This document shows positions 6,872-16,067 of a stretch of 21,256 nucleotides of DNA, piece by piece. The notes beneath the pieces were generated by a model. The model searched no databases, was not told where the DNA came from, and was given only the letters and a program-made list of their open reading frames with translations. The stretch's first letter is position 1. Every line of letters starts with the position of its first letter. Made by a program: the position numbers and the translations under genes. Source of the DNA: a virus. The DNA lies in IMG/VR virus record IMGVR_UViG_3300009786_000111, positions 1 through 21,256 of that record; one strand, written 5' to 3'.

Positions 6872-8099
6872 ACAAGTCACAGCCGTTGACCGCCTGTTTG
6901 AGTATGACCACACCATCCTTGTCGCCGGGACGGGTGTCGGCAAGACGGTGATCGCCCTGACCGCCATCTGGGAGATGATAGAGGAAAAGTATCTTCACAA
7001 GGTCATCGTTGCCGCGCCCGCCAAGGTCATCGAAAAGATGATCTGGCTGGAAGAGATGTGTAAGTGGCATCACCTACGCGGCATGAAGGCCATCCAGCTT
7101 GAGGGCAACAGCCAGCAACGCATCAAGACGCTCATGGCGAACGAGGCCGACATCGTCCTGGTCAGCTTAAACAACCTTGATTGGCTGTTGAAACAAGACC
7201 ATGAGTGCGACGGCATCGTCATCGATGAACTCTCCAAGGCAGCGGGCAAATGGACGAAAGGTTTGAAGTCTAAAAAACTCTGTGACAGATTAATTTGGAG
7301 ATGCGGTATGACAGCCACGCCCGTGTCCCAGAGCTATGAGAAAATATTTTCGATGGCCCGCATCATAGATTGCGGCAAAAGTTTAGGCACGAATAGGCAA
7401 GCCTATATCAACACCTACTTCGACAGCGACTACATGGGTTACAATCTAACGCTGAAAGGCTTCGCGGACGCGCAAATCATGTCAAAAGTGGCCTCTCTCG
7501 TCCACCTCGTTGTCGATGACAAGGCCAAGGTACTGCCACCTCTGCGTGAGAGCGTCATAAAATTCGATATGCCAGCGGAAACGCGGGAAATCTACAACGA
7601 CATGAAAAAGCACATGGTGGTCGAGGACCGTGAGGCCGCGAACCAAGCGGTCAAGTCGGGCGTCCTACGCCAGATCGCGTCTGGCTTCTATTATGGTGAC
7701 GCTGGACCGCCAACCTCGCTCGACACGGCCAGAGCCGACGCCGCGCTCTATTGGGCCAAGGGTTTGAAGGGTGAGCCGGGGATTATCTTCTATGAATTTG
7801 TCGAACAGCTTGTTCAGCTTGAGGAGTTGCCCGACAACATCATGCGGGCGCAGATACAGTCGATGTCACATGGCATCGACGGCCTTCAAAATACATACAA
7901 TTCGGTGTGTTTTCTGCAACCACCGTGGTCGAGGGACCAGCAAGAGCAAAGTATCGGCAGGGTCTGGCGGCAGGGGCAAAAAAAGCCCGTCACCGTCACT
8001 ACCCTGGTCTGTACCGATACGCTGGATGAACTGGTCGTGGCGAGGGTGGAAGACCGTGGCAAGTGGATGAAACTTTTTCGTAAGCATTTAGAGAATTGA
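6846..8099 (+). CDS. SNF2-type superfamily 2 helicase
   Basis: The 417-residue protein carries Walker A AGTGVGKT (residues 27-34), motif II IVIDEL (Asp127, Glu128), motif III-like GMTATPV (about 154-160) and motif VI QSIGRVWRQGQ (about 368-378, Arg372 and Arg375). This is the two-RecA-domain pattern of SNF2/DEXD-box proteins and matches the SNF2 helicases in phage cassettes with DUF2800, family A polymerase and VRR-NUC. It probably unwinds or remodels DNA at the fork. ATG at 6846 has an AAAGG site. The domain II region is compact, so the protein is shorter than chromatin-type SNF2 enzymes but usual for phages. Confidence 0.88.
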   Translation: MTSHSLTSEQVTAVDRLFEYDHTILVAGTGVGKTVIALTAIWEMIEEKYLHKVIVAAPAKVIEKMIWLEEMCKWHHLRGMKAIQLEGNSQQRIKTLMANEADIVLVSLNNLDWLLKQDHECDGIVIDELSKAAGKWTKGLKSKKLCDRLIWRCGMTATPVSQSYEKIFSMARIIDCGKSLGTNRQAYINTYFDSDYMGYNLTLKGFADAQIMSKVASLVHLVVDDKAKVLPPLRESVIKFDMPAETREIYNDMKKHMVVEDREAANQAVKSGVLRQIASGFYYGDAGPPTSLDTARADAALYWAKGLKGEPGIIFYEFVEQLVQLEELPDNIMRAQIQSMSHGIDGLQNTYNSVCFLQPPWSRDQQEQSIGRVWRQGQKKPVTVTTLVCTDTLDELVVARVEDRGKWMKLFRKHLEN

Positions 8100-8104
8100 C
8101 GCAA

Positions 8105-8117
8105 CACATAGTATGTG
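8105..8117. promoter_or_regulatory. 13-bp palindrome upstream of ParB-like gene
   Basis: CACATA-G-TATGTG is a perfect inverted repeat around one base, in the 53-bp gap between the helicase and the ParB-like gene. It is a candidate binding site for autoregulation or for the ParB-like protein itself. Confidence 0.45.
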
Positions 8118-8152
8118 GCAAGTTGAGATGTCACAACATAGGAGTTGACAAC

Positions 8153-9148
8153 ATGACTAAACTGCAAAACGTCCCAATGGACGCTATCGACGCCAACCCG
8201 TTCAGGCGGCTTGGTGACTATCCTTACGTTGAGCGTAAACTCGACGCACTGAAACGCTCCATCGAAGACGTTGGTCTTTGGGAGGGCGTCATTGCCCGTA
8301 AGAAAGGCAACCGTTACGAAATCGCCTTCGGACATCACCGTATGGAAGCCGCAAGACAAACGGGTTTGAAAGAAGTCTCCGTTGTTGTCCGCAAGCTGGA
8401 CGATGAACAGATGCTTCAATTCATGGGCCGTGAGAACCTTGAAGATTATAATGCCGACTTTGCCACCATGCTTGAGACATGGGAAGCCGCACTTAATTTC
8501 CCGGGCGCGGCCCGGGGTGACCTCAGTGTTGCGAAGTTATTGGGTTGGACAAACACCCATGAGCGCGACGGTGAACAGATGAGCGACACCGCGAGGGCTT
8601 GCTCTGCCGTGAATAGCCTTATCGTCAATAACCATGTGAAGCGCGAAGACTTTCATAATCTCTCAGTGAAGACGGCTAAAATTATAAGTGAGCGGGCTAA
8701 AGCCAACATTACCCGTGTCGTAAAGACCGCTAAGAAGAACAAACGGCCTGTCGAGGAAGTCGAGGAAGCTAAGAAGCAAATCGGCAAGGCAGTCACCAAG
8801 ACGGCAAAAGAAAGCCGCCGGGGTGAAATCGCGCAGAAGGACTTGCGGGGTCAGGTCGATGTAAATGCTTATCGCTTTGCCAAGCAGAGTAAAAAGCAAT
8901 CCCCACTATTTAAACAGTTTGGCGATCAACTGAAGAACAGCATCACTAAAATGCTGAACGGTGACAGCACCTCGACGAAATTGGCGGAAGTTACCGCCGC
9001 TCTTGGGGACATCACGCTGGAAGAAGATCATGCGGTGGTCCGCGCCATCAAGTTTGAATTGGGTGAACTGTCTGGCCGCGCCGACAAATGGGTTATTACT
9101 ATGGACCCGAAGAAGGTGGTCAACTTGAAGGAGATTTCCAATGAGTAA
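8153..9148 (+). CDS. ParB-like nuclease/DNA-binding protein
   Basis: ATG at 8153 has a GGAG site eight bases upstream; a TTG at 8096 overlapping the helicase stop is less likely. The 331-residue protein has a ParB/Srx-type N-terminal domain: VPMDAIDANPFRRLGDYP, then LKRSIEDVGLWEGVIARKK, the signature FGHHRMEAARQTG (matching GxxR-x-x-A) and MGRENLEDYNADF. The C-terminal part is rich in Lys and Glu (VVKTAKKNKRPVEEVEEAKK) and likely helical. Phage ParB-like proteins act as nucleases, transcription regulators or DNA-clamping factors, and the exact role here is open. It overlaps the next gene by 8 bp (ATGAGTAA). Because the window has a highly repeated palindrome, a sequence-specific ParB relative is of interest as a possible reader. 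Confidence 0.8.
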   Translation: MTKLQNVPMDAIDANPFRRLGDYPYVERKLDALKRSIEDVGLWEGVIARKKGNRYEIAFGHHRMEAARQTGLKEVSVVVRKLDDEQMLQFMGRENLEDYNADFATMLETWEAALNFPGAARGDLSVAKLLGWTNTHERDGEQMSDTARACSAVNSLIVNNHVKREDFHNLSVKTAKIISERAKANITRVVKTAKKNKRPVEEVEEAKKQIGKAVTKTAKESRRGEIAQKDLRGQVDVNAYRFAKQSKKQSPLFKQFGDQLKNSITKMLNGDSTSTKLAEVTAALGDITLEEDHAVVRAIKFELGELSGRADKWVITMDPKKVVNLKEISNE

Positions 9149-12148: not shown

Positions 12149-12166
12149 GGCGCGGGCATAAAAACA

Positions 12167-12202
12167 CCCGACACAGCGTTTAAACTGTGTCGGGCTATTT
12201 TT
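12167..12202. terminator. Bidirectional terminator with GTTTAAAC loop
   Basis: Arms CCCGACACAG (12167-12176) and CTGTGTCGGG (12185-12194) form a perfect 10-bp stem. The 8-nt loop and first closing base contain GTTTAAAC. CTATTTTT follows on the plus strand and a T-run also follows on the minus strand, so it can end the primase transcript and the leftward HTH transcript. Confidence 0.8.
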
Positions 12203-15160: not shown

Positions 15161-15450
15161 GGTGCGGTTTTCAGGTATTGAGATAAACCGAATAAACCTT
15201 TGGTGTCTAAAATCTCAATAGCCTCTTTTGACGCGATAAAAGTACAAACGGCATTTGTAAACTCTTTGCTATCACTCAAAAACCATTGCATTCCTTCTAA
15301 TGCGTTTGCTCTATCTTCTACCATTTTGGCTCTGATTTCCTGGCGGGCGGTTTTCGTTTCAGGTTTGCTATCGCAAACGAATAAACGATTATCCTTTTTT
15401 GTGTTCATACCAATTAGACGGAATAGGTTTGGAAATCTTACAGCGCCCAT
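15157..15450 (-). CDS. Hypothetical protein, about 97 residues
   Basis: The frame stays open upstream to 15621 but that would run under the opposing terminase gene. ATG at 15450 or 15408 are the realistic starts, neither with a clear ribosome binding site. The product reads MGAVRFPNLFRLIGMNTKKD, then NRLFVCDSKPETKTARQEIR, AKMVEDRANALEGMQWFLSD, and ends in FIASKEAIEILDTKGLFGLS. It is soluble, helical and charged, with no recognised motif. It is transcribed away from the terminase genes, across the divergent palindrome at 15467-15484. Confidence 0.6.
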   Translation of the reverse strand: MGAVRFPNLFRLIGMNTKKDNRLFVCDSKPETKTARQEIRAKMVEDRANALEGMQWFLSDSKEFTNAVCTFIASKEAIEILDTKGLFGLSQYLKTAP

Positions 15451-15479
15451 TGCAAAAAAACGGTTTGCGGTATTATAAT
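15450..15479 (+). promoter_or_regulatory. Rightward promoter of the packaging genes
   Basis: TTGCAA (15450-15455) is followed after 18 bp by a perfect TATAAT (15474-15479), 39 bp before the TTG start at 15518. The -10 lies inside the 18-bp palindrome, so a bound protein would block it. Confidence 0.6.
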
Positions 15480-15517: not shown

Positions 15518-15865
15518 TTGTCGCGTAAAAAAGGAACGCCTAACAAAATGACAGCGGCAATAAAGGACGCCGTTGAATTGTCATTCAGCAAGAAAAACAA
15601 GGGCGGTAAATATCTCGACAAGCTGGCTGACGATTTTCCCGCCGTCTATTGTGGTCTGATCGCAAAATGTATGCCGCAAGCGATTGCGGTTGACGTTCAA
15701 ATTCATGCCATAAACCTTGGCCTTGAAATGAAACGCGCCGCTGACACCCTAGCCCTGCTGACCCATCCACCCGACACACCGCCTCTCATAGATGTAACAC
15801 CCGACACAGTACAACCTGACACACCGTCACCTGTCACTGTGTCGGGTGATGCTGATGATGTTTAA
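15518..15865 (+). CDS. terS: Putative small terminase subunit-like protein
   Basis: TTG at 15518 has AAAAGGA seven bases upstream; an in-frame TTG at 15494 has no such site. The 115-residue protein begins MSRKKGTPNKMTAAIKDAVE, then LSFSKKNKGGKYLDKLADDF and PAVYCGLIAKCMPQAIAVDV. The '.rKKGtpNK.t..ik.a...' opening with 'yL..LA...Pa.y..LiaK.mP' is seen in small phage proteins encoded just before the large terminase and annotated as small terminase or TerS-like. TerS proteins recognise the packaging site and regulate TerL. The C-terminus has PDTP-type repeats (PPDTPPLIDVTPDTVQPDTP) encoded by the CACCCGACAC DNA repeats. The call rests on position and resemblance, not on a certain family match. 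Confidence 0.6.
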   Translation: MSRKKGTPNKMTAAIKDAVELSFSKKNKGGKYLDKLADDFPAVYCGLIAKCMPQAIAVDVQIHAINLGLEMKRAADTLALLTHPPDTPPLIDVTPDTVQPDTPSPVTVSGDADDV

Positions 15866-15973
15866 ACAACGCACCCGACACACCACATATTACAATAGGT
15901 TGCACACCCGGCATACCACAACTGTTAGTATTAAATCGGTTTTGAGATTATCGAAGGCGGGGTGTGCCGGGTG
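15768..15973. repeat. Cluster of seven CACCCGACACACC-type repeats, candidate pac/cos site
   Basis: Copies or variants start at 15768 (CACCCGACACACC), 15798 (CACCCGACACAGT), 15813 (AACCTGACACACC), 15872 (CACCCGACACACC) and 15905 (CACCCGGCATACC). Inverted copies are at 15836 (ACTGTGTCGGGTG) and 15961 (GGTGTGCCGGGTG). 15798-15810 and 15836-15848 are a perfect 13-bp inverted repeat with a 25-nt loop. The cluster covers the end of the TerS-like gene and the start of the 202-bp gap before the large terminase, a common place for the packaging initiation site. The stem of the terminator at 12167 uses the same sequence. Confidence 0.7.
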
Positions 15974-16067
15974 GTACCCCCGAAGTTTTGGCGGCAATAT
16001 ATTCTATAGTCCTCAAGCGGCCCGTCCGTATTAAAATTTTTTGAAAAATTAGTTAGGACAAATTGTC

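Follow-up and report, generated by a model that had tools for sequence, protein, structure and literature searches.

Organization of the terminase locus

The window, that is, the whole stretch of DNA analysed here, is a 21,256-base IMG/VR virus record, in which genes for a family-A DNA polymerase, an SNF2-type helicase and a DUF5906 primase-like protein occupy 4.3-12 kb and are followed by leftward genes, a small gene, the gene of the large terminase subunit (terL) and a head-tail connector gene (Table 1). Its relatives have genomes of 37-40 kb. The TerL protein is 44-45% identical (tblastn) to the annotated TerLs of MW202898, MW202483 and DSL-LC05, and about 35% identical to those of epsilon15-type phages. 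The small gene, referred to below as the terS-position gene, is kept upstream of terL in relatives; in the window a gap of 202 nt separates the two, and a consensus scan from the terS stop codon to terL listed no promoter-like or terminator-like site. A gene at 8096-9148 of the window encodes a ParB N-terminal domain (Pfam, E 6e-13). ParB-type partition sites were considered and rejected, as the ParB_N gene occurs in the window only, with no tblastn match in the genomes G001 and G007.

Table 1. Features of the terminase locus, in coordinates of the window
Feature	Position	Strand	Basis
Sigma-70-like promoter (TTGCAA-18-TATAAT) upstream of the terS-position gene	15450..15479	+	consensus scan only, 10/12 matches
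terS-position gene, KKGTPNK family, PHROG 11043, 115-123 aa	15494/15518..15865	+	ORF; PHROG 11043, E 2e-8
Repeat copy 1, CACCCGACACACC	15768..15780	+	
Repeat copy 2, CACCCGACACAGT, left arm of perfect 13-bp inverted repeat	15798..15810	+	
Repeat copy 3, AACCTGACACACC	15813..15825	+	
Repeat copy 4, CACCCGACACAGT, right arm of perfect 13-bp inverted repeat	15836..15848	-	
Repeat copy 5, CACCCGACACACC, immediately 3' of the terS-position stop codon	15872..15884	+	
Repeat copy 6, CACCCGGCATACC, inverted partner of copy 7	15905..15917	+	
Conserved core, candidate packaging-initiation site, ~110 bp	15951..16060	+	nhmmer profile matches
Core G-run and GGTACC-centred GC dyad; GGGGGTACCCCCG in relatives, partly decayed in the window	15959..15982	.	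alignment
Repeat copy 7, CACCCGGCACACC, within the conserved core	15961..15973	-	
Second conserved core block, CTATAGTCCTCAAGCGGCCCGTCCG; in relatives CTATGGWCCTGACnnnGACACTCCG	16004..16028	+	alignment
Core A/T tract TTAAAATTTTTTGAAAAATT, position conserved	16031..16050	.	alignment
terL, large terminase subunit, 510 aa	16068..17600	+	PHROG 2, E 8e-34; tblastn to annotated TerL
Repeat copy 8, AACCCGGCACACC, in terL, Pro-Gly-Thr-Pro codons	16174..16186	+	

A conserved core upstream of terL

The gap upstream of terL is mostly unalignable among relatives, with the exception of a core of about 110 bp. This core is matched in the window at E 1.5e-15 by an nhmmer profile that was built without the window, and at E 6e-15 by a profile built from relatives with less than 80% TerL identity only. 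Its architecture comprises a G-run, a GGGGTACCCC-type dyad, a spacer of about 25 nt, a block of the form CTATGGWCCTGACnnnGACACTCCG, and an A/T tract, and the GC dyad is among the parts that are best conserved in the alignment. Near-complete contigs carry one strong profile match each, always on the terL strand, and in the window's clade the core starts 102-342 nt upstream of terL. The original prediction had placed a packaging site here on the strength of seven repeats; it appears to have chosen the right region, although it missed the conserved core, which only the seventh of those repeats overlaps.

A second, larger clade, with TerLs that are 44-49% identical, has an analogous element upstream of terS, composed of a G-run, GGGCC, a spacer and GCAAACAATTTTTTATTTTTT. 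This element was also recognized by eye in DSL-LC05 and MW202483, as well as in MW202898, where it lies approx. 1.6 kb upstream of terL. Further core profile matches (E <= 0.002) occur on TerL-bearing contigs of bacterial assemblies; among named phages, blastn with the core returned chance matches only. One contig with a 70% identical TerL (L261), which starts inside the core, is binned in a Candidatus Uhrbacteria metagenome-assembled genome and is probably a misbinned phage contig. Four contigs (L017, L178, L205 and L377) have unusually long G runs at the position of the core G-run, mostly near contig starts, and these are likely a sequencing or assembly artefact.

Repeats around the core

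The seven 13-mer repeats predicted at 15768-15973 are indeed present, in both orientations and with no more than two mismatches to CACCCGACACACC (those at 15768 and 15872 are exact, and the other five carry one or two mismatches), as is the perfect 13-bp inverted repeat formed by copies 2 and 4. An eighth copy begins 106 nt into terL, a position (+106) that is common to many relatives, and pairs with the seventh in a perfect inverted repeat of 14 bp. Synonymous conservation at the terL copy is in modest excess, which ranks it among the top windows only and is not outstanding. The sequence CACCCGRCAYACC, with up to two mismatches, has 15 matches in the window compared with 1.71 in dinucleotide shuffles, and 15 matches were reached in 0 of 100 shuffles; the motif CCCGRCACAC, with one mismatch allowed, has 7 copies in the 450 nt upstream of terL compared with 0.05 in shuffles.

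Among relatives, the full array is confined to the window's own species (L008-L010), and some others have 1-5 copies. Copies of CCCGACACAC are concentrated around the core also in L011, L024, L045 and L046, occur singly in a few other relatives, and are absent from the vicinity of the core in several. The repeats appear to have pointed to the right place, but the deep conservation resides in the core and not in the array. Within the terS-position gene, the motif reads P-D-T in the window, L011, L019 and L024, and P-T-H in L045 and L046. Since the same motif is read in two different protein frames, the constraint is on the DNA rather than on the peptide, and the CCCGACACAC copies, as a satellite specific to this lineage, surround the core and act at the DNA level. 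They also shape a PDTP-type C-terminal tail, as had been proposed; this tail is of low complexity and is unconserved in relatives. The repeats exemplify how a DNA signal can overwrite the end of a protein.

It should be noted that looser copies are enriched throughout the window (12 in coding sequence compared with 2.95 after codon shuffling), which weakens the claim that the motif is specific for the array. It is possible, but rather unlikely, that the core is a packaging site while the repeats have merely expanded neutrally or are copies of a genome-wide motif that serves some other purpose, particularly because the motif also forms the stem of a terminator and its copy number varies greatly between relatives. 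However, repeat density near the core is approx. 18 times that in the rest of the window (7 vs. 0.39 per 450 nt), four relatives likewise concentrate their copies around the core, and the core itself includes a similar sequence. Outside the array, 9 of 11 CCCGRCACAC-like sites to the left of 12.1 kb are on the minus strand, and all five to the right of the terL start are on the plus strand; the sites are few, and the polarity of the motif around the region was dropped as an argument for this reason. One such position seems to be common to the window and G001, via a conserved gene.

A second repeated sequence, the palindrome GTTTAAAC, occurs 17 times in the window compared with 0.65 expected (for example at 407, 3072, 9792, 12178, 15860 and 17634). 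It is also over-represented in G001 (12 vs. 0.36 expected) and G007 (5 vs. 0.70 expected), and is absent from G008, G012, G017, G018 and G019. Several of its copies are located within or next to terminator hairpins. At 12166-12195, between converging genes, a two-way terminator-like hairpin has the repeat sequence as its stem (CCCGACACAG/CTGTGTCGGG) and GTTTAAAC in its loop.

Headful or cohesive-end packaging

Information on the packaging mode comes from the ends of related contigs. Four of these (G012, G017, G018 and G019) represent permutations of a single circular map: within G012, the two ends of G018 overlap, the ends of G012 are nearly adjacent in G018, and G019 ends in the middle of the G012 genome, with an exact terminal overlap of 123 nt. 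The ends differ among the four, as they would not in a phage with direct terminal repeats. The position of the element or of terL varies freely along some two dozen contigs of 30-40 kb, all 23 contigs that carry the left flank of one lineage continue through the element, and no near-complete contig begins or ends at it, although the contigs may stem from cellular DNA. Circular maps with scattered ends, none of them at the element, favour headful (pac) over cos packaging, and the former is considered more likely. Nonetheless, contigs derived from cellular DNA would look circular for a cos phage too, and the permutation argument is therefore not proof. As in pac phages, the site lies at or beside the terminase genes in both clades, and there is one site per genome.

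For a cos phage, the GC-rich dyad would correspond to a cosN-like nick, the A/T tract to an I2-like bend and the repeats to cosB R1-R3-like sites, and the virion DNA would have fixed cohesive ends. The order of parts, i.e., a GC-rich dyad, then a poly-dA/dT bend and then repeats, does resemble that of lambda cos (PMC4856287), the dyad belongs to the best-conserved parts, and the starts of some short contigs fall at the element or within it. An excess of short contigs (7 of 55 compared with 1.5 expected) begins no more than 200 nt upstream of the element, which could reflect either a true terminus or breakage at the G-run or in the variable upstream region. The starts fall at different bases beside this variable region, some with artefact-like poly-G runs, and the excess, which is mild, probably arose during assembly, through the G-run or the variable sequence. 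The pile-up of contig ends was rejected as a test for cos; a sequence that looked like a full-length contig with its start at the element (L362) was also rejected, being a truncated stretch of a contig in which the site is at 25.5 kb. Considering also that near-complete contigs extend across the element and terminate at other places, that the TerS of several relatives is of the type found in Sf6, a headful phage (PMC9611059), and that the related Enterobacter phage Tyrion (37% TerL identity to the relative L087) is circularly permuted, as confirmed by PCR (PMC5754475), a cos site is unlikely.

Comparison with known packaging sites

The locus can be compared with several characterized systems. 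In the Bacillus phage SPP1, which is a headful phage, pacL-pacC-pacR resembles the present arrangement in that the first cut, next to the terminase genes, is flanked on both sides by repeats and TerS-bound segments (PMC6316719, PMC4737164, PMC4856287). However, SPP1 pac overlaps the terS promoter and start, whereas the core in the window follows the terS-position gene and precedes terL, and the repeats of the window, unlike those of SPP1, run through the 3' end of that gene. In lambda cos (cosN-I2-cosB), which is likened here by the order of its parts, a GC-rich dyad, an A/T-rich bend and repeated TerS sites are likewise close together (PMC4856287). Lambda differs from the window's group, in which there is no evidence of fixed ends and contigs run through the site. 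The pac site of P22, also a headful phage (PMC9611059), is located at the terminase genes too; nonetheless, it is a single asymmetric sequence of 22 bp inside the TerS gene, compared with a core of about 110 bp and many repeats in the window. Uetakevirus-type phages (epsilon15, phiV10 and Tyrion) have a homologous TerL (35-38% identity), and no such element could be seen by eye at the record ends or at the terS starts of epsilon15, phiV10, phage AF and Tyrion.

Transcriptional and replicative functions

Control of transcription of terL and the head genes, by a late operator, promoter or terminator, is a much less attractive explanation and appears improbable. The site does lie in the 202-nt gap just upstream of terL, its inverted copies can form strong RNA hairpins (single hairpins in the region fold well), and the terminator at 12166-12195 has the same stem sequence. 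Against this, no sigma-70-like promoter or terminator was listed in the gap, the core has no RNA covariation and no Rfam match, and the element of the second clade lies upstream of a sigma-70-like terS promoter (by eye), so that the transcript does not always include it. A structured RNA element was also rejected, as none of four predicted pairs was changed on both sides and Rfam gave no match. A replication origin with iterons, as the repeats in both orientations beside an A/T tract might suggest, is very improbable, given that there is no initiator gene nearby, that the replication genes are at 4.3-12 kb and the linkage is to the terminase genes, and that GC skew does not switch at the element in G001.

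The protein at the terS position

The original prediction described the small gene as TerS-like. It is indeed located directly upstream of terL, although no relation to known small subunits in sequence or fold could be found. The protein has no Pfam match, and its sole family is PHROG 11043, of unknown function; neither a PDB sequence nor a Foldseek match was obtained, with an AlphaFold model that is itself weak (pTM 0.29), and comparison with the Sf6-type TerS of relatives by hhalign detected no relation (E 0.27-0.43). The 115-residue protein is thus a TerS by position only.

Sf6-type TerS (PHROG 1482, PF20901) is encoded by L059, L265 (just under the Pfam cut-off) and DSL-LC05. In the window's clade, the PHROG 11043 protein is present and Sf6-type TerS is undetected, and in G008 the reverse is true. 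G012 and G010 have neither, and their small upstream protein is missed by PF20901. The two families were not found together in any of the genomes searched. The occurrence of the same type of core beside small proteins with no detectable relation to each other suggests that small subunits have been exchanged around a fixed site. The idea that one packaging core is kept next to TerL while the adjoining recognition protein is exchanged comes from few genomes and is tentative, indeed rather doubtful. If it is true, the core might be read by TerL or by a host factor, or unrelated small subunits might have converged on one site, and the clade-specific repeats would be the tunable part, read by each small subunit. 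Within this context, it should be remembered that TerS is often a weak and unspecific binder in pac phages and that pac repeats need not be TerS sites (PMC4737164, PMC9611059). For example, pac repeats have little effect on binding by the DNA-binding domain of SF6 TerS (PMC4737164), which is a warning for any assumption that TerS binds the repeats described here.

A candidate packaging-initiation region

Taken as a whole, 15768-16060 is probably the packaging-initiation region of a podovirus (we would put the probability at about 0.6), with pac more likely than cos. We infer that packaging starts at this site: at the core, the terminase would assemble on replicated DNA and introduce the initial cut, and DNA would then presumably be drawn in toward terL. 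Copies of CCCGACACAC may be accessory binding sites for the recognition subunit that have been expanded in this lineage, in a layout like that of the lambda cosB R sites or of the SPP1 pac repeats around the cleavage site. Counting against this reading are the restriction of the array to one species, the occurrence of the motif elsewhere in the window and the fact that mapped genome ends were found for no member of the group. No description of a published packaging site for this mostly uncultured phage group was found either.

Packaging sites are known for few phages. A candidate that is defined by its sequence across diverged clades makes the packaging mode testable from the ends of virome reads, and such a site would also let annotators place genome starts. 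Moreover, the locus offers a case of a DNA site that has apparently outlasted the replacement of the small terminase.
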